Source of the DNA: Chitinophaga sp. MM2321 | GTDB lineage: Bacteria; Bacteroidota; Bacteroidia; Chitinophagales; Chitinophagaceae | DNA: 64,000 nucleotides | Assembly (NCBI RefSeq): GCF_964033635.1 | Contig: NZ_OZ035533.1 | Location: 2,108,001 to 2,172,000, forward strand | Direction of reading: 5' to 3' | Part shown: piece by piece, positions 2,883-36,414 of the stretch | How positions within the stretch are numbered: the stretch's first letter is position 1 | Layout of the letters: the number at the start of each line of letters is the position of its first letter | The notes under the pieces: model-generated | The model's input: only the letters and a program-made list of their open reading frames with translations | Told to the model about the DNA's origin: nothing | The model's database searches: none | Made by a program: the position numbers and the translations under genes

Positions 2883-5800
2883 ATGAGAAAAGAACTGATC
2901 AAAGCTCTTTGCGGGCCTTCTTTTCGATCGCCTTTCCTTTCGCTGGTAATGTGCCTGGTATTCCTGAGCGTGCTGGATCTGCACGCGCAGATAGCCTATG
3001 CTTCGGGTATGCGCAGACCGCCATCGGACCAACAGGTGAAAGAACGGGAAAGCGGAATGAATTATGTCGTGAGCTTGCAGGTAGAAAATGCCAGCCTCGG
3101 ACAAGTACTCGAAATAATTGAGCAGCAAACATCCCTGGTGTTTGTCTATTCCAACGATGAAATCAAAGCATCACAAAGGATTTCGCTGAATGTAAAAAAT
3201 AATAAACTGGACGATGTTCTCCAGATGATCCTGCTGCCGCTGAATATCCGGTATGAGATGATCAGCAACAAAATCATCCTGAAACAAACAAGTCTTGCTA
3301 CACTGGATGATCAGCAACAGGAACTAGCCATCTCCGGCCGTGTTGTCAACAACAAAGGAGAAGGGATACCCAATGTAAACGTGCGTGTACAGGGCCTGAG
3401 CATCGGTACGGTGACCAACAGGGATGGCGTTTATTCCTTAAAGATACCTGCCGCACAGGCCAATGGTATCCTGATTTTTTCTTCTGTAGGATATATTCCT
3501 GCGGAGATAAATATCAATGGAAGAACCCATATAGTAGCCATGCTCACGGAAGATGCAAAAGACCTGAACGAGATTGTGATCACTGCTTATGGTCAGCAGA
3601 AAAGAACACAGGTAACAGCCGCCATCAGTACGATCTCTAACAAAGATATTACCAGCCGGCCTGCTACCAGTATGTTCCAGGCTTTACAGGGACTTGCACC
3701 TAACCTGATTATCCAACAGAACACGGCCGAGCCGGGCGCCACTATCAATATGAATATCCGCGGTGTGGGTAGCTTAACAGGCAACGCACCCCTGGTGATT
3801 ATTGATGGGGTGCAGGCAGGTAACACCGGTTTGCAAAACCTGAATCCTTATGATGTGGAAAATATTTCTGTGCTGAAAGATGCTGCATCTGCGGCTATCT
3901 ACGGGTCACAGGCGGCAAATGGCGTGATCTACATCACTACAAAAAGGGGAAAGAAAGACGAGCGTCCTACGGTGCAGTACAATGGTATGTACGGCTGGCA
4001 AACACCTACTACTTTGCCCCGGCAGGTAGAAGCATGGCAGTACATGACCCTAAAAAATGAAGCATTGGTCAACTCCGGTAAAACACCGCAGTTTGCGCCC
4101 GCTGATATTAAATCCTGGCACGACCGTGGCTCCGAACCGGCCATGCTGCGTGAAATGGTGCGGGAATATACACCACAGCAGAACCATAGTCTGAGCGTTA
4201 CCGGTGGTGGTAAAACCAGTAGCTACCTGTTGTCACTGGGTTATGTAGACCAGGGCAACATGTTGCAAAACAAGTGGCTGCCATCAGACCAGGAATTTTA
4301 TTATAAACGCTACAATGCACGCCTGAATGTATCCATAGACGTAAGCAAATATGTGAAAGTATCCGGAAACGTAGCTTACACGCGCTCCAACACCCGCACA
4401 CAGGTATTTGATATGGGACTCCTGATGCGTGATGCCATGCGTGTTCCCCGTATTTATCCGGTGAAGGATTCGTTGGGTAACTGGGTAGTACCCAGTCTTA
4501 CCAGTAACAGTGTGTTTGCACAGCTGGGTGAAGGCGGTTATAAAATGAATGCTATGGATAACCTGATGGGTGGATTGGATGTGGTGATTACCCCGGCAGA
4601 TCATTTTAAGATCAACCTGAATGCATCCGGTAATTACAATATCAACAATGAAACCCGCCGTATCAACAAGTTCAGTTACGCACCTTATTATACCACGGCT
4701 AATCCGCCACTGTATAATGAAATGCATCAGAGTGAATACAAGGACCTCTATACTAACGTGTACGCCACTGCGGAGTATGAAAATACTTTCGGTCGTCATT
4801 ATGTGAAAGGACAGGTAGGTGTGCGCAGTGATGCGGTAAATGAAGGCTATGGCTTCCGTGGGGATCGTTTTGGTACCACTAATCTTGATAAGGACTGGTC
4901 TATCGGGGGTGGATATATTCCCAAAGCGGATGGTACCTACGACTATGCACAGATAGGTACGTACAACGATTTTACCAATCCTAACCTGTATGCATTGAAC
5001 TCTTTATTCGGAAGGGTAAACTATGTATATAATGATAAATACCTGGCAGAATTTACCTGGCGGTATGATGGTTCTTCCAAACTGGCGCCGGGTCATCGCT
5101 GGCAGTTCTTCCCCGCGTTTTCACTGGGATGGAGACTGACAGATGAAGCCTTTATGCAGGGAATAAAAGACAAGGTGGGTAATGTAAAACTGCGCTATTC
5201 CTGGGGACAGGTGGGTAATTCCACTATCGGCGGATTCAACTACCTGGCCAGGGTGAATATCAATTCGGGTTATTATGCGTTCAACAATTCACCGGTAACC
5301 GGCTCCACTTTTTCAACCTATAATGATCTGTTGCAGTGGGAAATTTCCGCGATGAGCAACTACGGCGTGGATGCGGATTTCTTTAAAGGTAAGCTCACCG
5401 CATCTTTCGATTATTTTGAAAAGATGACCACCGGCATTTACCTTTTCCAGACCGTTCCCGGTACTGCCGGTACAGATGCGCCACTGGAAAATGTGGGTAA
5501 AGTAAATAACAAAGGTTGGGAGCTGGCATTGACGTATCGCACCAGGACAGGCGCTTTTAATCATTCCTTTGGTTTTAACCTGGCTGATAACCTGAATAAG
5601 GTCATCAAGTTCGGACAGGAATCAATCCGCGGCAGCGATTTTACTTATATCATCAAAGAAGGTTTCCCCATTGCTTCGTACTATGGATATAAATCCAATG
5701 GCCTGTATCAGAACCTGGATGATCTGAAAAGTGCGCCAAAAGTGCCTTTCGCATATAACCAGCAGGTAATGCCGGGAGATATAAAATATATCGACCGCAA

Positions 5801-6377
5801 TGGCGATGGCGTGATCGATGAAAGCGACCGCTATGTATTTGGTAATCCTTTCCCCCGCTATACTTTTGGTTTTACCTATAGTGTGAGCTGGAAGAACTTT
5901 GACATGACCATGTTCTGGCAAGGGGTGGGCAAAAGATCCCAGTTCCTGCGGGGTGACATCGTAGAGGCCTTCCATAACAATGAAGACCATGCCATGATCC
6001 AACACCTGGACCGCTGGACGCCTACCAATCCCGGCGCTACTTATCCGCGTCTCACTATTGGTGCGGCAGATGCCAACAATTTTGCATACTCCGATTACTG
6101 GATGTTTGACACCAAATACCTGCGCCTTAAAAATTTACAGGTAGGATATAACCTGCCGAAATCATTGCTGGACAAGGCGAAGATCCAGGGTGTACGGGTT
6201 TATTTCACCAGCCAGAACCTCATAACAATAATGCCTAAACGATTCCGTGAGCTGGGGGTAGATCCTGAGTTTACGCAATTTGATGACAAGCTGGGTAATG
6301 CTAGTTACAATCCTATTGCAGGACGTAATTATCCCAATGCTGCCACCTTTGCTTTTGGTTTGGATGTAAAGTTCTGA
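2883..6377 (+). CDS. SusC/RagA-family TonB-linked outer-membrane transporter with STN domain
   Basis: A 1164-residue outer-membrane importer. In order: signal peptide (about 1-36, ending LDLHAQ); STN domain (about 65-125), which signals to FecR; carboxypeptidase-D-like regulatory domain (about 148-235, ISGRVVNNKGEGIPNVNV); TonB-dependent plug from about 240; and a large beta-barrel to the aromatic C-terminus (FGLDVKF). The STN domain fits control by the upstream sigma/anti-sigma pair. With the SusD lipoprotein 19 bases downstream it should form the lidded glycan importer of PUL 1. The adjacent GH76 genes suggest an alpha-mannan oligosaccharide substrate (inference). Confidence 0.95.
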   Translation: MRKELIKALCGPSFRSPFLSLVMCLVFLSVLDLHAQIAYASGMRRPPSDQQVKERESGMNYVVSLQVENASLGQVLEIIEQQTSLVFVYSNDEIKASQRISLNVKNNKLDDVLQMILLPLNIRYEMISNKIILKQTSLATLDDQQQELAISGRVVNNKGEGIPNVNVRVQGLSIGTVTNRDGVYSLKIPAAQANGILIFSSVGYIPAEININGRTHIVAMLTEDAKDLNEIVITAYGQQKRTQVTAAISTISNKDITSRPATSMFQALQGLAPNLIIQQNTAEPGATINMNIRGVGSLTGNAPLVIIDGVQAGNTGLQNLNPYDVENISVLKDAASAAIYGSQAANGVIYITTKRGKKDERPTVQYNGMYGWQTPTTLPRQVEAWQYMTLKNEALVNSGKTPQFAPADIKSWHDRGSEPAMLREMVREYTPQQNHSLSVTGGGKTSSYLLSLGYVDQGNMLQNKWLPSDQEFYYKRYNARLNVSIDVSKYVKVSGNVAYTRSNTRTQVFDMGLLMRDAMRVPRIYPVKDSLGNWVVPSLTSNSVFAQLGEGGYKMNAMDNLMGGLDVVITPADHFKINLNASGNYNINNETRRINKFSYAPYYTTANPPLYNEMHQSEYKDLYTNVYATAEYENTFGRHYVKGQVGVRSDAVNEGYGFRGDRFGTTNLDKDWSIGGGYIPKADGTYDYAQIGTYNDFTNPNLYALNSLFGRVNYVYNDKYLAEFTWRYDGSSKLAPGHRWQFFPAFSLGWRLTDEAFMQGIKDKVGNVKLRYSWGQVGNSTIGGFNYLARVNINSGYYAFNNSPVTGSTFSTYNDLLQWEISAMSNYGVDADFFKGKLTASFDYFEKMTTGIYLFQTVPGTAGTDAPLENVGKVNNKGWELALTYRTRTGAFNHSFGFNLADNLNKVIKFGQESIRGSDFTYIIKEGFPIASYYGYKSNGLYQNLDDLKSAPKVPFAYNQQVMPGDIKYIDRNGDGVIDESDRYVFGNPFPRYTFGFTYSVSWKNFDMTMFWQGVGKRSQFLRGDIVEAFHNNEDHAMIQHLDRWTPTNPGATYPRLTIGAADANNFAYSDYWMFDTKYLRLKNLQVGYNLPKSLLDKAKIQGVRVYFTSQNLITIMPKRFRELGVDPEFTQFDDKLGNASYNPIAGRNYPNAATFAFGLDVKF

Positions 6378-6396
6378 TGCTTAAACAATCTATTGT

Positions 6397-8004
6397 ATGA
6401 AGAAGTTACTATTGATAATATTACTCGCGGCGGGCATGTCCGGTTGTCGTAAGCTGGACCAGCCTATCACGCGGGAGTTTACTGAAACGGCTTACTGGCG
6501 TGATTCACAGGATGCGCTGGACGCATTGACCGCCTGTTATGAGCATCTCTCCAAAGATGATTACTTTTTTGGTGATGAAGCCCTGAGCGATAACGCTTAT
6601 AACAGCGGTAGCGGATTACTGAATGTAACCTCCATTTCCAACGGCGGTTACGATGGTTCCAATGCCCGTGTAAAAGATACCTGGGGTTATTACTTTACAA
6701 CTATTCGTAGGTGCAACACCGTTACTGCCAATGCAGACCGTGTACCCGGAATGGATAGTACCCTGAAACGCCGGATCGTAGCAGAGGCCCGGTTTATACG
6801 TGCCTATGCTTATTTTCAGCTCACTGCCTGGTACGGCGATGTACCTTTTTATACGGACCTTATCTCTATTGAGCAGTCCCGTGTTATTGCACGTACGGAT
6901 AAAAACACCGTGCAGCAGTTTGTATTACAGGAGCTGGCCGATATTCAGAAAGACTTGCCCACGAATACGCAGCTGGCGGAAAAAGACCGCGGCCGTGTGA
7001 CCCGTGGTGCGGCTATTGCGCTGAGTGCCCGCGTACACCTGTTCCGCAGCGAGTGGCCGGGAGTAGTGAGTGACTGTGAACTGCTGATCAATACAACAGA
7101 GAACGGCGTTTACAGCCTGTTCCCCAGCTACAGCAACCTGTTTACCGTTGCCAATGAATACAATCCTGAAGTGATCATGGACCTGCAATATGGCGGTGGC
7201 AGAACGTACGACAAGCAACGGCAGTTCCTCCCACAAACCATTGCTGCCCTGAGAAGTGTGCTGGTACCTACACAGGATCTTGTAAACGATTACGTGATGG
7301 GGAATGGTAAAGGGATCAATGAAGCTGGTTCCGGATATGTGGAGAGCAATCCGTATGTAAACAGGGACCCGCGCTTTGAAGCCACTATCCTGCATCATGG
7401 GTCTATCGTAACAGATTTCAACGGGGCGCAGCAAACGATCCTCACGCAACCGGGTTCCGTACCCGCTACCAATAGCGTGGATGATCAGGGCGCATCACCT
7501 ACCGGTTACTATTTCTATAAGTATTATGACCGCAGCGCCACCAATTACCAGTCGGGCCTGAACCTCATCCTCTTCCGGTATGCCGATATACTGCTGATGT
7601 ATGCAGAAGCGAAGATGGAGCAGGGGCAGCTGAGTGCTGCTATCTGGAATCAGACAGTCCGGGCTTTGCGTGTACGCGCCGGATTCACAGATGCCAGCGC
7701 CACTGAGTTCAATGCCGCCTGGACAGCCGATCAGCAGCGGACCATCATCCGCCGGGAAAGGAGAGCAGAGCTGACTTTTGAAGGACTTCGCATCTTTGAT
7801 ATCCGTCGCTGGAAGATCGCTGACCAGGTACTGAATAAACCTGTGAGAGGAATCAAAGTAACTTCCGGCTCTTTCAATAAAGATGCAAATGGTTACATCA
7901 TTGTAGAGAACAGGCTGTTTACAGATCCTAAACATAACCTCTGGCCGGTACCTACATTTGAGCGCGATCAGAATAAAAACCTTTCACAGAATCAAGACTG
8001 GTAA
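6397..8004 (+). CDS. SusD/RagB-family glycan-binding lipoprotein (PUL 1)
   Basis: A 535-residue surface lipoprotein. The signal peptide ends in a lipobox (AGMSGC, Cys about residue 17). The rest has SusD character: an N-terminal helical SusD-like region with ARFIRAYAYFQLTAWYGDVPF, and a C-terminal RagB/SusD domain with the usual ILLMYAEAKMEQG and ERRAELTFEGLRIFDIRRW patches. It ends NQDW, close to the family's usual C-terminus. It pairs with the SusC immediately upstream (19-base gap) as the lid that captures glycans. Confidence 0.95.
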   Translation: MKKLLLIILLAAGMSGCRKLDQPITREFTETAYWRDSQDALDALTACYEHLSKDDYFFGDEALSDNAYNSGSGLLNVTSISNGGYDGSNARVKDTWGYYFTTIRRCNTVTANADRVPGMDSTLKRRIVAEARFIRAYAYFQLTAWYGDVPFYTDLISIEQSRVIARTDKNTVQQFVLQELADIQKDLPTNTQLAEKDRGRVTRGAAIALSARVHLFRSEWPGVVSDCELLINTTENGVYSLFPSYSNLFTVANEYNPEVIMDLQYGGGRTYDKQRQFLPQTIAALRSVLVPTQDLVNDYVMGNGKGINEAGSGYVESNPYVNRDPRFEATILHHGSIVTDFNGAQQTILTQPGSVPATNSVDDQGASPTGYYFYKYYDRSATNYQSGLNLILFRYADILLMYAEAKMEQGQLSAAIWNQTVRALRVRAGFTDASATEFNAAWTADQQRTIIRRERRAELTFEGLRIFDIRRWKIADQVLNKPVRGIKVTSGSFNKDANGYIIVENRLFTDPKHNLWPVPTFERDQNKNLSQNQDW

Positions 8005-8030
8005 TTCATCCACCTAAAAAAAGTACGTAT

Positions 8031-9164
8031 ATGAAGCAATATATTATCACAGCATGTTCCATTTTAAGCATACTGTTTACTGCTTGTAAAAAGGACAACT
8101 ATACACTTAATACCAATATGCAGCCGGTGGAAAAACTCACCGCTCCTTTGGATAATAAATACATAAAGCTGCAACCTACAACCAGTGCGAGCGTGAGCTT
8201 TGAATGGGATCAGGCGCGTGCAGAAGACGGTTCGCTGGTATTATATGAAGTAGCTTTTGATAAAGAGGGTGGCGACTTCTCTTCACCCGTAGCAAAGTTT
8301 GCTGCAGACGGAGGCGGGGTACAGAATAAGCTCACCTTATCTCACAAAGATCTTAACAGCATTGCCGGGAAAGCTGGTATTGCTTCACTGGCTACCGGTA
8401 AAATAAAATGGACGGTACTGGCATCCAAAGGATACAACATTCAGCCAGCGGCGGAGTCAAAACTGATTGAAGTAGAAAGGCCAAATGGTTTTGCTGAAAT
8501 TCCGCTGGATGTTTTCCTGACAGGAGAAGCCACGGAAGCGGGTACTGACCTGGCCAAGGCCATCAAGCTGAAAGCTGTTTCCCCGGGTGTATACGAAGTG
8601 TATACTTCTCTGAAAAATGGTAAATATCATTTCGTCAACAGGAACACCGGCACGCCCAGCACTTATTCTATCAGCGGAACAGCTGTAAAGGAAGGGGGTG
8701 AATCAGAACAAACAACAGGTACCAAAGTATACCGCCTGCGGCTGGATTTCAACAATGCAGCAGCAGCAAGTACAGAGATAACCGGTATCGGGCTTTGGTT
8801 TGCGCCGCTGAACAAGTTTATCTACGACCTGTCTTATGAAGGCAACAGCATCTGGGCGTTCCGTAATCAGCCGATCACTTTCAAACAAGAATCGTGGGGT
8901 CGTGATGAACGTTACAAATTCCGTGTAGCCGTAATAGGTAGTGATGGTACGCCCGGTGAAGAATGGTTTGGCAGTTCCAATGCAGATAATAACCGTCCTA
9001 CTGCGGGTACTCCGCTCAGCTTCTGGGAGTTTCATCCAATCAGCAATAACGACCAGTGGAATTATTGCTACAAATTTGCATCAGAAGCAGATAATAAAAA
9101 CTGTGACGTAATCGTAACTTTTGCGCCTGACAAAAATTACACCCACGAAGTGATTGTTAAATAA
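8031..9164 (+). CDS. SusE/SusF-like outer-membrane glycan-binding lipoprotein
   Basis: A 377-residue lipoprotein (lipobox LFTAC). The N-terminal SusE-type beta-sandwich follows (about residues 25-155: an opening PLDNKYIKLQP region and an FEWDQA strand), then two further beta-rich domains that end at the C-terminus. SusE-like proteins sit on the cell surface beside SusC/SusD and help retain glycans. It follows SusD by 26 bases and precedes a GH76 gene by 7 bases, so it belongs to the same operon. Confidence 0.85.
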   Translation: MKQYIITACSILSILFTACKKDNYTLNTNMQPVEKLTAPLDNKYIKLQPTTSASVSFEWDQARAEDGSLVLYEVAFDKEGGDFSSPVAKFAADGGGVQNKLTLSHKDLNSIAGKAGIASLATGKIKWTVLASKGYNIQPAAESKLIEVERPNGFAEIPLDVFLTGEATEAGTDLAKAIKLKAVSPGVYEVYTSLKNGKYHFVNRNTGTPSTYSISGTAVKEGGESEQTTGTKVYRLRLDFNNAAAASTEITGIGLWFAPLNKFIYDLSYEGNSIWAFRNQPITFKQESWGRDERYKFRVAVIGSDGTPGEEWFGSSNADNNRPTAGTPLSFWEFHPISNNDQWNYCYKFASEADNKNCDVIVTFAPDKNYTHEVIVK

Positions 9165-12214: not shown

Positions 12215-12298
12215 GCCCAGATGGCGAAATTGGTAGACGCACTGTGTTCAGGTCGCAGCGCCGGCAACGGTGTGCTGGTTCGAATCCAGTTCTGGGCA
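12215..12298 (+). tRNA. tRNA-Leu(CAG), copy 1, used as integration site
   Basis: An 84-base type II tRNA. The acceptor stem GCCCAGA pairs with TCTGGGC, with discriminator A at 12298. The anticodon loop TTCAGGT has anticodon CAG at 12249-12251, the stem is CTGTG/CGCAG, the variable arm is long, and the T loop reads GGTTCGAATCC. CCA is not encoded (CTA follows). Its 3' 17 bases are repeated at 16999, marking it as the attachment site of the element that follows. The gene remains intact. Confidence 0.97.
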
Positions 12299-12306
12299 CT
12301 AAAAAG
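12282..12306 (+). repeat. attL: 25-bp direct repeat, tRNA 3' end plus 8 bases
   Basis: The 25 bases from the T-arm of tRNA-Leu through CACTAAAAAG recur exactly at 16999-17023. This is the usual footprint of tyrosine-recombinase integration into a tRNA gene. The identity extends 8 bases past the mature tRNA end. Confidence 0.88.
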
Positions 12307-12401: not shown

Positions 12402-12596
12402 AAGCTCCAGACAATTTTTGAGCCTTATCAGACATTGGAATGCGGTAAAGCCGAAGTAGGGTTGGGGCTATACTTGTGCAAACAATATGCTGATTTACTA
12501 GGTGGAAATATCGAAGTCCGGAGCAAAAGAGAGGTCACCGTCTTTTCAGTTATTCTTTCTTTTTCATCAATCAAATTTGACAATCACGATAAATAA
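12402..12596 (+). pseudogene. Histidine kinase remnant (C-terminal ATPase end only)
   Basis: A 64-codon frame without an ATG, opened by a stop codon just before it. It reads IFEPYQTLECGKAEVGLGLYLC, followed by KQYADLLGGNIEVRS. This is the G2-box end of a sensor kinase HATPase domain (VGLGLYLCKQYADLLGGNIEV), with nothing of the rest of the kinase present. It ends at TAA 12594-12596. It is a decayed passenger next to the left attachment site and points to an earlier, larger or rearranged element. Confidence 0.75.
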
Positions 12597-12625: not shown

Positions 12626-12850
12626 GTGTTTTTACCCATACCCCGGTTTTTTTCCCGGGAAAGAATGTGTGAGGAATGCAATTGGAGCACCCCAACGTTC
12701 TACCGGAAAATGAGGTTAATTAATGATCGGGATAAGGATTCCAGAGGGGCAGCCGCGTTAAGTAATGCCGAGAAAACGATGATGAAAAAAGTAGCCGCTG
12801 AGGTAAAAGTGTGGTTCCAAAATAGTCTTGTTCAGTTGATTGAATCGTAA
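12626..12850 (+). CDS. Small HTH-like protein (hypothetical)
   Basis: Up to 74 residues from a GTG at 12626; an ATG at 12665 would leave 61. The stretch RERMCEECNWSTPTFYRKMR has the look of a recognition-helix region of a small helix-turn-helix protein. The C-terminal half is basic and helical (LSNAEKTMMKKVAAEVKVW). It lies between the kinase remnant and the ATPase operon inside the element, reads the same way, and could be an element regulator or a leftover. I do not recognise a family. Confidence 0.4.
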   Translation: MFLPIPRFFSRERMCEECNWSTPTFYRKMRLINDRDKDSRGAAALSNAEKTMMKKVAAEVKVWFQNSLVQLIES

Positions 12851-13165: not shown

Positions 13166-14881
13166 ATGACAGATTTCCTTGATGAGAAGGAATTTGAAGA
13201 AAGGTCAGACTATATAGAAGACAATAATCTAGAATTATGGAACGTCCATAATCAGCATTTTGACTTCATCCAAAAGAAACTACTAGGAGTTGGAGCAAAA
13301 CTTTTGGTTGGGCCTAGGGGTACTGGCAAAACGCACCAAATGAAAATCGCCCATTTATTGTGTAATAAAGATAATTCTAAACCGCTTTCAATATTTGTTT
13401 CGTTTACGAAGTATTATCATTTGGAGCCATTTTTAACTAAGGTTCCAAATGCATTGCAAGTATTTCATACTTGGGTTTTGTCCAAAATAATCCTCAGTTG
13501 TTACGCACTGATTGAAGAACGAAAAGATGATTATTCTCTTTTTGCGAACTCTCCAAGGTCACTGTCCAAAGAGGCGGTGACAACTTTCGTAGAAAAGGCA
13601 GAAAAACTACGTGCATCGCAATTGAGCAATGATAGCCTTATTGTTGATCTAACTATTCACAAGGTTATAGACTGTCTAGAACAGCTTTGTAACCATTATA
13701 AAAGGAAGCGAGTAGTATTGATGCTGGATGATGCCGCGTTATCATTAACGCCTGAATATTTAGTAGAATTCTTCGATATAGTAAGAAGCTTAAAAACTAA
13801 AGGGATTTCTCCAAAAGCATCAGTATATCCTGGCACTACTCAATATGGACCAAGATTTCATGTAGGCCAAGATGCAGAGATGGTACCATGTTGGTTAGGG
13901 GTAGAGAACTCAACTTACTCTTCATTTATGGATAGTTTGGTAGAGCAAAGATTTGTACAATACAAAAGTGGAATCAGTACTGAAATAATCGAGCTTTTTA
14001 AATATGCCTCTTTTGGTGTTCCAAGAGCTTTTATAAGCCTCCTTAGAAATTACAAAGGGAATCCTGATAAAAGTACACTTGCAAAATTTAATGCAGCAAT
14101 AGATCAGCAGGCAAAATTTATTGAAACAGAATATCTCTCGATTGAGAAAAAACTTGTCCAATATCGGAAGGTAATTGAAACAGGAAATAGTTTATTCAAG
14201 AATATTATTGAGTGTATCAAGGAAGAAAATAAAACTTCTGGTGAGTACAAAAATATTGTGATTGGCATTCAATCTGAAAGTATCGATAGTATCAAACTCG
14301 CAAGCAGAATGGTAAGATTTCTCATTGAAGCAGGACTGCTTTATGAGGAGGTTCCAGTGAAGCACGGTGTACAAGAGAAAGGCGAAAAGAGAGAATATAA
14401 AAGATATATTCCTCACATCTTATTTCTAATACAGAATAGAACCTTCTCTCAAGGTCACGGCACAAGTTTCTCAGAAACCTTAAATAATATTAAGAAAAAA
14501 TCCAAGAAACACCCTGTTAGAAGGGTACTCAATACATTATTAGACAAGGAAGAATTAGATGGACTTACGTTAGATCTGCCTCCTTGCCAATCCTGTAATA
14601 CCCCAAGATTAACTGTAGAGCAACGATTTTGTCATAATTGTGGTAAGGAATTAGTCAATCAATCCGCATTTGAGAAATGCTTAAAAATTTCAGTTGATGC
14701 ACTTCCTTTAACAGATTGGCAAAAAGTAAAAGTTAAGGAAATAGGACTCAATGTAATAGGAGATTTTCTTGCTCTACAAGATCCAGCTGCAACGCTCCGT
14801 AAAATTCCTAGAATTGGGGAAGTGAAATCCACAAAAATATATAGTGAAGTAGTCAAAACTGTTGATGAATTCTTAGCATAA
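13166..14881 (+). CDS. P-loop ATPase with zinc ribbon and HhH tail (candidate defence gene A)
   Basis: A 571-residue protein without signal or membrane segments. Walker A is GPRGTGKT at 49-56, Walker B is RVVLMLDDA at 182-190, and a helical lid region with FGVPRAFISLL lies at 283-293. The layout resembles ORC/STAND-type AAA ATPases. A winged-helix-like stretch follows (about 340-425), then a zinc ribbon with C474, C477, C489 and C492, and a helix-hairpin-helix at about 515-571 (KIPRIGEVKSTKI), both typical of nucleic-acid binding. It is likely a nucleotide-driven sensor or motor on DNA or RNA (inference). Its stop overlaps the next start (TAATG). Codon use is AT-rich compared with the chromosome around it. 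Confidence 0.85.
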   Translation: MTDFLDEKEFEERSDYIEDNNLELWNVHNQHFDFIQKKLLGVGAKLLVGPRGTGKTHQMKIAHLLCNKDNSKPLSIFVSFTKYYHLEPFLTKVPNALQVFHTWVLSKIILSCYALIEERKDDYSLFANSPRSLSKEAVTTFVEKAEKLRASQLSNDSLIVDLTIHKVIDCLEQLCNHYKRKRVVLMLDDAALSLTPEYLVEFFDIVRSLKTKGISPKASVYPGTTQYGPRFHVGQDAEMVPCWLGVENSTYSSFMDSLVEQRFVQYKSGISTEIIELFKYASFGVPRAFISLLRNYKGNPDKSTLAKFNAAIDQQAKFIETEYLSIEKKLVQYRKVIETGNSLFKNIIECIKEENKTSGEYKNIVIGIQSESIDSIKLASRMVRFLIEAGLLYEEVPVKHGVQEKGEKREYKRYIPHILFLIQNRTFSQGHGTSFSETLNNIKKKSKKHPVRRVLNTLLDKEELDGLTLDLPPCQSCNTPRLTVEQRFCHNCGKELVNQSAFEKCLKISVDALPLTDWQKVKVKEIGLNVIGDFLALQDPAATLRKIPRIGEVKSTKIYSEVVKTVDEFLA

Positions 14882-15747
14882 TGGGAAAAGATAAAAAAGC
14901 TATTTTCGAATTGAAGGCAAACTCAGTTATGGCAGGCGTTGTTGGCTACGACCTGAGAAATGCGATTGACATAAAACATAAAGAATCTGATTTTTCGCCA
15001 ATCGATAGCTTCATATCAAATGGAACTGAGATAAACAAACTTTTCACAGCGACTCCCTCCCAAGTTTTAGGAAACTTGATCATACTCGGATATATATCTG
15101 CAATAGAAAGCTATTTTCGCGCATTATTTCGTAGACTTATTTTGATAGATGACAAATGCAGGGAAGCCTGTGAGAAACGGCAGGTTTCATATGGTGCAGT
15201 TTTGGCAGTTGATGATTTAATGTTGCCCGAGGCCTTATTTGAGGATATATCTTTCGCAGGTAGAAAAAATTTGATTGACTCGTTTAAGAACTTTCTAAAT
15301 TTAACGTTGCAAGATTCACAAATACCTCCCGACCTCCAAGAAACATTAACTCAGTTTAGTGAAATATGTGAGCTTAGGCACTGTATTGTCCATAGATTTG
15401 GTAAATTTGGCTCGAAGAATGCCATTAGTTTGGGGCTAAATAAGCATCAGTCACATATTGAGAAGCCAATCAAGTTCGATTTCACAATGTTGCAACAACT
15501 TGTAACTGTATGCCACAACACTGTTAGAATTACCAACAATTTGTTGATGGAAAGGATACTAAATAGACTTTTAGTGGAAGGGAGTCACAAAATACCGAAT
15601 CCAATATGGACATGGGATTTCGATAAAGACAAACAGTTATTTGGGCAATATTTTGATACATTTTACTCAAAATTGAATCCACCTAAGCCTAAGTTAACTA
15701 TGCAGGCGGCATACTCAAAATATTATAAATATTATCAAAGCATATAA
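14881..15747 (+). CDS. HEPN-type predicted ribonuclease (candidate defence gene B)
   Basis: A 288-residue, mostly helical protein. ELRHCIVHRFGK contains R166-x4-H171, the R-x4-6-H catalytic signature of HEPN RNases. An earlier helix, ISAIESYFRALFRRLI (about 72-87), matches the first helix of HEPN proteins of the MAE_28990/RiboL-PSP kind. HEPN proteins act as toxins that cut RNA in abortive-infection, toxin-antitoxin and CRISPR effector systems. Here no MNT antitoxin is present, and the flanking ATPase and methyltransferase would be the control parts (inference). The start overlaps the ATPase stop by one base, implying coupled translation. The family call is from motif and helix pattern only. 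Confidence 0.7.
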   Translation: MGKDKKAIFELKANSVMAGVVGYDLRNAIDIKHKESDFSPIDSFISNGTEINKLFTATPSQVLGNLIILGYISAIESYFRALFRRLILIDDKCREACEKRQVSYGAVLAVDDLMLPEALFEDISFAGRKNLIDSFKNFLNLTLQDSQIPPDLQETLTQFSEICELRHCIVHRFGKFGSKNAISLGLNKHQSHIEKPIKFDFTMLQQLVTVCHNTVRITNNLLMERILNRLLVEGSHKIPNPIWTWDFDKDKQLFGQYFDTFYSKLNPPKPKLTMQAAYSKYYKYYQSI

Positions 15748-15753
15748 AATAGG

Positions 15754-16926
15754 ATGGATTTATTAGGGAGATATTATACGGCAGAATTATTTTCTGAGCT
15801 TTTAGTAAACACTTTTTCTACTAAGGAGCCCACATCAATTTTGGAACTTGGAGTAGGTGGCGGTTCCTTAATAAAAGCTGCCTTAAGTAGGTGGGCCAAT
15901 GCGTCTTATTATGTGGCTGACGTGGATCATAATTCCCTAGAAAAGATAAAAGAGGAATTGCCTTTTATCAATACTTTTCATATTGACACTATTAAAGAAA
16001 ATGTATCTGAGAAATTAAATCTCAAAAATGGATCTGTTGACATTGCGATCTGCAATCCACCTTATCTCAAGGTAAGAAATGAACTGTGCTATGATAGCTT
16101 ATTTCATGATGCTAACTTAGATGCCTGTAGAAAATTAAGGATTTTAACATCAGACATTATCTTCTTAGCGAAGAATTTGCAATTAGTAAAAGCCAATGGT
16201 GAAATTGGAATAATTCTGCCTGATAGCCTTATCACAGGGAAAGAATTTGAGAACTTTAGGGCAGCGTTAATTCAGGAATACCATATTAAGGGAATTATAC
16301 AATTACCCGAAAATATTTTCCCTAAAACGGAAGCCCTAACACATATACTATATATCGAAAAGCAAAAGCCCCTAAAGCCTAATACAACGTTGTTTCTATC
16401 AGATAATAAAGGCACCATTATCAATTCTATTGATGTTGATCATGCCTCTTTGGTAGATAGAATGGATTTTAAATTTCATTCTTGGCAAGCTTCATTTAAG
16501 AGATGTAAACGCCAAACACTAGCCTTAAGGGATTTAAGTGCAGATGTTCAACGAGGTAGTTTAACACATAAAGAATTAAAAAATTCAGGTAAATCTTATG
16601 TACATACTACTAATATGGTGCACATGGAAAAATGCTTACGCTTAAAATCCAGCAAAATTATTGAAGGGAAATTTCGGCTCACCCAAAAAGGAGACATTTT
16701 ATTGTCGAGAGTAGGTAATATTGGAAAAGTTTCAATGGTCACACAAGGGAAAGCATTATATTCCGATTGTATTTATAGAATTAGAGTGGCACCAGAACAT
16801 CGTGATCAAGTTTGGAATGCTCTTATTTCAGAGGTGGGACAAAGCTGGCTACAGGCAATATCTCATGGGGTTTGTGCGAAGGTTATAAGTAAAAATGATA
16901 TATTAAACTTCCCAATCAATGTTTGA
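15754..16926 (+). CDS. N6-adenine DNA methyltransferase with single specificity domain (candidate defence gene C)
   Basis: A 390-residue protein. The SAM-binding motif ILELGVGGG lies at 29-37, the acidic end of the next strand is VADVD, and the catalytic NPPY is at 101-104. The helical part resembles HsdM (GEIGIILPDSLITG, then a GIIQLPENIF patch). From about residue 255 the C-terminus looks like one target-recognition domain of a Type I HsdS subunit (KGDILLSRVGNIGKVSMV). So it is a compact modification-plus-specificity fusion without a nuclease. It starts 6 bases after the HEPN gene. It may mark self DNA or sense modification. It could be an orphan modification enzyme, but the tight operon argues against that. 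Confidence 0.85.
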   Translation: MDLLGRYYTAELFSELLVNTFSTKEPTSILELGVGGGSLIKAALSRWANASYYVADVDHNSLEKIKEELPFINTFHIDTIKENVSEKLNLKNGSVDIAICNPPYLKVRNELCYDSLFHDANLDACRKLRILTSDIIFLAKNLQLVKANGEIGIILPDSLITGKEFENFRAALIQEYHIKGIIQLPENIFPKTEALTHILYIEKQKPLKPNTTLFLSDNKGTIINSIDVDHASLVDRMDFKFHSWQASFKRCKRQTLALRDLSADVQRGSLTHKELKNSGKSYVHTTNMVHMEKCLRLKSSKIIEGKFRLTQKGDILLSRVGNIGKVSMVTQGKALYSDCIYRIRVAPEHRDQVWNALISEVGQSWLQAISHGVCAKVISKNDILNFPINV

Positions 16927-16998: not shown

Positions 16999-17023
16999 GA
17001 ATCCAGTTCTGGGCACTAAAAAG
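16999..17023 (+). repeat. attR: 25-bp direct repeat of tRNA-Leu 3' end
   Basis: An exact copy of 12282-12306. Only the last 17 bases of the tRNA plus 8 downstream bases are present. The sequence before it (CCCGGAACAAGATGT) is not tRNA-like, so this is an attachment-site scar rather than a tRNA gene. Confidence 0.88.
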
Positions 17024-36326: not shown

Positions 36327-36410
36327 GCCCAGATGGCGAAATTGGTAGACGCACTGTGTTCAGGTCGCAGCGCCGGCAACGGTGTGCTGGTTCGAATCCA
36401 GTTCTGGGCA
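36327..36410 (+). tRNA. tRNA-Leu(CAG), copy 2
   Basis: 84 bases, identical over the mature tRNA to copy 1 at 12215-12298, with anticodon CAG at 36361-36363. The 24 bases before it are also the same. It is followed by a different terminator and carries no integrated element, so it serves as an internal comparison for the occupied copy. Confidence 0.97.
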
Positions 36411-36414
36411 CCTT

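Follow-up and report, generated by a model that had tools for sequence, protein, structure and literature searches.

A conserved mobile set of three genes coding for an ORC/Cdc6-STAND-type ATPase, a HEPN-like protein and an N6-adenine methyltransferase, a candidate defence module of Chitinophaga sp. MM2321

In a stretch of 64,000 nucleotides of the genome of Chitinophaga sp. MM2321 (contig NZ_OZ035533.1, positions 2,108,001 to 2,172,000 of the forward strand; hereafter the window), a small element inserted at a tRNA-Leu gene carries three genes coding for an ATPase, a HEPN-like protein and an N6-adenine DNA methyltransferase with one target-recognition domain. We report here that these three genes form a conserved mobile set. 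With about even confidence, we propose that this set is a mobile three-component defence module following the logic of restriction-modification (R-M), with an RNase in the place of the DNase, the functional steps being those that we infer in the Discussion.

Results

The three genes and their conservation

The operon consists of three plus-strand open reading frames (ORFs) between 13166 and 16926, with an overlap of 1 base between genes 1 and 2 and a gap of 6 bases between genes 2 and 3. The GC content of the ATPase, HEPN and methyltransferase genes is 0.355, 0.360 and 0.347, respectively, compared to 0.445 for the window. The tight operon of three AT-rich genes, which a preliminary description of this DNA had reported, was thus found in all its details. 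The genes and their motifs are the following:

13166 to 14881, plus strand: ORC/Cdc6-STAND-type ATPase of 571 aa with a C-terminal zinc ribbon and a helical tail resembling helix-hairpin-helix (HhH), predicted from profile matches and a structure model
13310 to 13333, plus strand: Walker A motif GPRGTGKT, residues 49 to 56, kept in 68 of the 68 rows in which the region is present (alignment of 73 rows)
13727 to 13732, plus strand: Walker B DD, residues 188 and 189, kept in 70 of the 70 rows with the region present (73 rows)
14585 to 14641, plus strand: zinc ribbon with cysteines 474, 477, 489 and 492, kept in 69 of the 69 rows with the region present (73 rows); Pfam zinc ribbons are matched in relatives
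14881 to 15747, plus strand: HEPN-like protein of 288 aa, predicted RNase effector, from an AlphaFold2 (AF2) model and the R-x4-H motif
15376 to 15393, plus strand: HEPN motif R166-x4-H171 (C-x-RHC-xx-HR), from alignment conservation
15754 to 16926, plus strand: N6-adenine DNA methyltransferase with one HsdS-like target-recognition domain, 390 aa, from Pfam and PADLOC
16054 to 16065, plus strand: methyltransferase motif NPPY, residues 101 to 104, with NPPY in 31 and NPPF in 31 of the 62 rows with the region present (64 rows)
16516 to 16923, plus strand: target-recognition domain, about residues 255 to 390 with an approximate boundary, from Methylase_S and Specificity_I

Related loci, designated here by L numbers, were collected from genome contigs by a HEPN alignment scan (61 loci) and from viral contigs by an ATPase alignment scan (13 loci), giving 74 in total. 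An ATPase sequence is located at most 400 bp from the HEPN gene in 71 of the 74 loci (six of these 71 are damaged or truncated at the end of a contig), and all 13 viral loci found via the ATPase have the HEPN gene. A methyltransferase sequence, damaged in some cases, lies within 1.5 kb in 63 of the 74 loci and none was found in the other 11; it is placed upstream on the same strand in 48 loci, downstream in nine and upstream on the opposite strand in six. Each of the 53 intact methyltransferases on the same strand lies no further than 52 bp from the ATPase-HEPN pair, counting overlaps. Gene order tracks the tree and is clade-specific, with 8 changes versus a mean of 21 after shuffling; this tree, to which the window was added and from which L019 and L069 were dropped as near-copies, covers Bacteroidota, Pseudomonadota and Myxococcota. 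The three genes co-occur in an order that differs by clade, and their status as a conserved mobile set is supported.

The distance correlation between ATPase and HEPN is 0.92, while the methyltransferase parts correlate with either at 0.72 to 0.74 (58 rows: 57 loci and the window), the methyltransferase diverging faster than the two other proteins. The module is rare: ATPase matches were obtained in three of the 395 genomes of the window's phylum (its own genome and two distant paralogues) and in two of the 369 genomes of the class of a gammaproteobacterial locus (one match being that locus, the other a fragment of some 104 residues), and HEPN matches in two of 59 relatives, own genome included. 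Another copy is present in a congeneric genome, G010, where the HEPN and methyltransferase lengths match those of L016 (Chitinophaga sp. S165). The window methyltransferase, used as query, retrieved no viral locus.

Domains and motifs of the three proteins

The ATPase of the window matched the ORC-CDC6-like family (PF24389) weakly, with 23.1 bits for a Pfam cut-off of 27, which is passed by three of the four relatives scanned (L017, 28.2; L042, 42.4; L078, 51.5) and missed by L053 (24.6). The HhH tail is backed in relatives only, by a match of 26.2 bits to HHH_5 in L053 (cut-off 27). This protein had been described as a P-loop ATPase with a zinc ribbon and an HhH tail; the ATPase and the zinc ribbon were recovered, and support for the HhH character of the tail comes from relatives.

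The second protein gave no match in Pfam. Its AF2 model has a pLDDT of 91.6 and, in structural comparison, comes closest to HEPN proteins, with weak Z scores. R166 and H171 are invariant in 36 of 36 aligned relatives (of 120 listed), and the R-x4-H motif is present in 75 of 75 rows of a larger alignment; the genome loci were found partly via the HEPN motif, so that their HEPN and R-x4-H counts are conditioned on it, and the 13 viral loci among the rows were found via the ATPase. The motif and, less firmly, the predicted HEPN-like fold agree with the HEPN R-x4-H assignment made at the outset, and we predict that the 288 aa protein is HEPN-like. HEPN proteins with this motif are described as RNases (PMC3710099).

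For the third protein, 63.4 bits were obtained with N6_Mtase (Pfam) and 234 bits, over nearly the full length, with the PADLOC model MTase_II (PDLC03285). The recognition domain is matched weakly, by Methylase_S over residues 266 to 389 (19.1 bits, cut-off 22) and by PADLOC Specificity_I (30.7 bits). With the NPPY motif, these matches support an N6-methyltransferase joined to an HsdS-like domain, as first read, at a weak level for the recognition domain. A methyltransferase with a single recognition domain would mark an asymmetric site.

Broken copies

The ATPase and HEPN genes are both intact in 65 loci, a set from which were dropped the loci at contig edges or split (L006, L021, L036 and L052) and those with a damaged ATPase (L018, L033, L037, L057 and L063). 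L052, probably one system distributed over different contigs, was not regarded as a natural deletion. In the 65 loci, the methyltransferase is adjacent in 58 (cut by the contig end in L041), absent in five (L011, L056, L060, L078 and L079) and split in two, over differing frames in L067 and by a stop in the same frame in L075. The catalytic residues of the ATPase and of the HEPN protein are all kept in these seven loci. The proposal that the methyltransferase must protect self is, in its simple form, not supported by these seven of 65 loci and by a plasmid copy, L119, whose methyltransferase is split too; the methyltransferase is not an obligatory antidote. An alignment search covering 10 genomes found no full-length methyltransferase elsewhere in the genomes of the methyltransferase-less loci L011, L018, L060 and L037, with partial matches of 60.9 to 98.5 bits and none in L018.

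In L018, L033 and L037, an undamaged HEPN gene adjoins an ATPase that is broken or largely absent. Among Escherichia coli copies, EC15, 167 and HCP8S3_I1 have insertion sequence (IS) insertions in the ATPase with the HEPN gene whole, W21 keeps a whole HEPN gene but lacks the methyltransferase and the beginning of the ATPase, and MSB1_1D has insertions in both the ATPase and HEPN genes. Since the HEPN gene is tolerated without an intact ATPase, the ATPase is more likely an activator than an antidote. The idea that the ATPase releases the RNase fits in the sense of activation and not in that of restraint, and an antitoxin role of the ATPase, which we also considered, is disfavoured on the same evidence.

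Damage sparing the methyltransferase amounts to about four to five events (L033; L057/L063; EC15 and 167; HCP8S3_I1 and MSB1_1D, the grouped E. coli copies sharing insertion sites), and damage of the methyltransferase alone to three (L067, L075 and L119), this gene representing 31 percent of the coding length; sequencing errors are possible in single broken copies. Single-gene damage is about as gene length predicts and so reveals no biased loss that would mark the methyltransferase as an antidote. Pseudomonas bharatica CSV86 has two copies (L057 and L063), with ATPase and HEPN genes broken in both and methyltransferase ORFs of 441 and 408 aa.

The element and its insertion site

The element of the window, 4.7 kb long, is inserted at the 3' end of a tRNA-Leu gene and flanked by a perfect direct repeat of 25 nt. 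The 21-base core of this repeat occurs twice in the 6.78 Mb genome, both times at the element ends. Besides the three genes, the features are:

12215 to 12299, plus strand: tRNA-Leu (CAG), the integration target (ARAGORN)
12282 to 12306, plus strand: left 25-bp direct repeat, att-like, overlapping the 3' end of the tRNA (repeat search)
12402 to 12596, plus strand: fragment similar to the C-terminal portion of a histidine-kinase ATPase domain (translation judged by eye)
12626 to 12850, plus strand: ORF of 74 aa with no match in Pfam, PADLOC or NCBIfam
16999 to 17023, plus strand: right 25-bp direct repeat, att-like (repeat search)

The 74-aa ORF is the only one of at least 60 aa in the element beyond the three genes, and no integrase is present among the element's ORFs. 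The three genes are the only large intact cargo of a small tRNA-integrated element, as had been stated, what is left being the 74-aa ORF and the kinase-like fragment. In a comparison aimed at an empty site, 14 of 35 genomes, counting its own, had the right-flank gene, but the 10 loci inspected showed no tRNA-Leu within about 1.5 kb of flank, and no empty site was seen. The window contains one more tRNA-Leu (CAG) gene, at 36327 to 36412.

Mobility, Escherichia coli copies and neighbouring genes

The genes of the system are lower in GC than their surroundings in all 44 loci of at least 15 kb, with a mean difference of 0.099. Matches were obtained in 43 plasmid records, four of them with at least 80 percent of the ATPase: two of these copies are complete in all three genes, the methyltransferase of L119 is split over two frames, and L120 has the ATPase and HEPN genes only. 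Prophage contigs are among the carriers of the three-gene set, and a search of the phage collection with a single ATPase, that of L017, was negative. At L056 (7799 to 11568, a Thiotrichaceae metagenome-assembled genome), the ATPase-HEPN pair comes after a nuoK-like gene and is followed by a repeat of the end of that gene, which suggests integration there.

In E. coli, 148 of 5426 complete genomes have a match, and 145 contain 80 percent or more of the set's DNA. From the 148 matches, 60 were inspected and 11 regions were examined, chosen partly for their broken look, and so give no damage rate. In 10 of the 11 regions the set comes after a tyrosine integrase gene, and the two that were widely examined are located at tRNA-Thr. 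RefSeq labels the products as 'HsdM family methyltransferase', 'ORC-CDC6 family AAA ATPase' or 'zinc ribbon domain-containing protein', and 'hypothetical protein'. The E. coli methyltransferase scores 786.8 bits with the PADLOC type II model PDLC03285. The set of E. coli HS (L131, 13612 to 17209; operon at about 335287 to 339242 of NC_009800.1) ends about 1.7 kb before brxA of BREX-1, the cluster that was cloned from that strain.

A scan, descriptive like the neighbour observations above and likewise with no matched control, was made on 147 of 204 selected neighbouring ORFs, ORFs of more than 700 aa, loci after L050 and two duplicates of L017 being omitted. Among the families listed, it gave 10 Phage_integrase and 9 ORC-CDC6-like matches, at most 8 per CARF6 model, and single R-M and other defence matches. 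Nine of the 61 genome loci, against none of 13 viral loci, have a second ORC-CDC6-like ATPase together with a CARF6-type protein directly beside the three-gene set (L003, at 5193 to 8100, L004, L007, L009, L012, L023, L042, L044 and L045, from Bacteroidota and Pseudomonadota), at 15 to 146 bp and in the same direction in six of them. The second ATPase of L003 reaches 362 bits with PF24389. Eight CARF6 calls are from PADLOC, and that of L023 is from an impure profile of our own on the ORF 13914 to 14840; L023 additionally has a PRTase-CE gene (L023, 10927). Among the literature listed for CARF6 and PRTase-CE, no account of the ORC-CDC6/CARF6 pair was found.

Distant paralogues of the ATPase, at L080 (7751 to 10181) and L081 (7065 to 9386), pair with a helical protein of 232 to 234 aa containing a VHG motif, with a weak DUF5677 match in one. 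This is possibly another ATPase-HEPN pair. The L080 pair adjoins an operon that appears, by eye, to be type III R-M.

Comparison with known systems

No named system for the ATPase/HEPN set was found in Pfam, PADLOC, NCBIfam or in the literature searched, which had preprints and most subscription journals outside its scope. The profile checks gave no precise match, in line with the earlier statement that the gene set was not recognised as a named system; a name for the three-gene system may nevertheless have been published. The association of HEPN proteins with R-M operons is a theme already known. In PrrC-EcoPrrI and the other HEPN/R-M operons, an RNase of the HEPN type is, as here, genetically coupled to DNA modification enzymes (PMC3710099). 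PrrC sits in a full type IC R-M locus according to PMC12707154, whereas the ATPase and HEPN genes are separate here, with no restriction subunit or hsdR. In type I and II R-M, a methyltransferase with a recognition domain is shared with the present set, the recognition domain itself being weakly matched, and no restriction endonuclease or HsdR family was matched in the ATPase or HEPN proteins (Pfam, PADLOC, NCBIfam). PrrC itself is a single ABC-ATPase/HEPN protein.

The BREX-related Hma systems, centred on DUF499, also combine an ORC/STAND ATPase, an N6-methyltransferase and often a HEPN domain; they have, according to PMC12839542, a Swi2/Snf2 helicase and a HEPN domain fused to the DUF499 ATPase, neither of which was matched in our three proteins. 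BREX type 1 differs by PglZ, BrxA, BrxB and BrxL, none of which is among the three genes, and by the HEPN-like effector present here; the BREX gene set (PglZ with BrxA, BrxB, BrxC and BrxL) is not found in the element, the methyltransferase being only weakly PglX-like (PADLOC, NCBIfam). The likeness to MADS consists of a methyltransferase with 62.6 bits to mad2, a weakly MAD5-like recognition domain (30.4) and a weakly mad8-like ATPase (at most 23.7 bits), but no other MAD1 to MAD8 component was matched, and the scores fall far short of the NCBI cut-offs, with 33.5 bits for MAD2 where 720 would be needed. In RADAR, the partner RdrB is an adenosine deaminase, and no deaminase was matched in the element.

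Discussion

In the module that we propose, the methyltransferase would find, through its single recognition domain, a specific and probably asymmetric site and methylate an adenine in it, so that the sites of the host would be marked. When incoming DNA presents an unmodified site, the complex of methyltransferase and DNA would recruit or load the ORC/Cdc6-STAND ATPase, whose C-terminal zinc ribbon/HhH part would bind DNA and which would assemble with ATP. The assembled ATPase would then activate the HEPN protein, leading to RNA cleavage and arrest of the infected cell. If the methyltransferase is both marker and sensor, as in BREX, its loss would silence the system and the host would not be killed. 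Deletion of brxX abolished both protection and modification by BREX, as reported in PMC6326788. More tentatively, we consider it possible that this is a restriction system which never cuts DNA: the methyltransferase would be mark and sensor, the ATPase would assemble like an origin binder at unmethylated sites and fire the RNase, and the CARF6 pair could add a nucleotide-signal input in a subset of loci.

Among the other explanations, the strongest, which we nevertheless find unlikely, is that the ATPase guards the methyltransferase, or another R-M or BREX enzyme, and fires the HEPN protein once this enzyme is blocked by an inhibitor from the phage, for instance a DNA mimic, in the manner of PrrC and EcoPrrI. 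Couplings of HEPN genes to R-M operons are described, with a PrrC-type release proposed for them, in PMC3710099 and PMC12707154, the copy of E. coli HS is beside BREX-1, and the methyltransferase-less copies would fit if another enzyme were guarded. Loss of the ward should nevertheless fire such a guard, yet L067, L075 and L119, in which the methyltransferase is split and the ATPase and HEPN genes are intact, persist. The divergence of the methyltransferase, faster than that of the two other proteins, is also not what a closely guarded partner would show.

It is less probable again that the ATPase and HEPN genes form a two-gene abortive infection system with a trigger of its own, the methyltransferase being a frequent but independent passenger. 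The correlation of ATPase with HEPN (0.92, versus 0.72 to 0.74 with the methyltransferase), the five loci and the Limimaricola plasmid copy with no methyltransferase, and the distant ATPases that pair with a different small helical protein all speak for it, but the linkage of the methyltransferase is tighter than expected of a passenger, with all 53 intact same-strand genes within 52 bp of the pair and a clade-specific order.

A classical R-M or toxin-antitoxin arrangement, in which the methyltransferase, as an essential antidote, would have to keep its sites modified to prevent an attack on the cell by the ATPase and HEPN proteins, seems improbable to us. An operon with an N6-methyltransferase and a nuclease is the usual R-M layout and a methyltransferase sequence is nearby in 63 of 74 loci; against this stand the seven of 65 intact ATPase-HEPN loci that have no intact methyltransferase and keep their catalytic residues, and the damage that is distributed about as gene length, with some four to five events sparing the methyltransferase and three hitting it alone. 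Finally, ATP-dependent restriction of unmodified DNA by the ATPase and HEPN proteins, the latter acting on DNA, would suit the site-specific methyltransferase (PADLOC type II) but is very improbable, as Pfam, PADLOC and NCBIfam gave no DNase domain for any of the three proteins and PMC3710099 describes HEPN proteins with this motif as RNases.

If the proposed module is true, it would be an R-M-like system with an RNase as restriction arm, in which DNA self-marking is tied directly to abortive infection by three compact genes. The DNA of the set being present in 145 of 5426 E. coli genomes, including HS, this is directly testable in laboratory E. coli. HS and its BREX mutants are reported in PMC6326788 to be all fully resistant to lambda, T4, T5 and T7; our guess is that the three-gene set might contribute to the phage resistance left in HS after BREX deletion.

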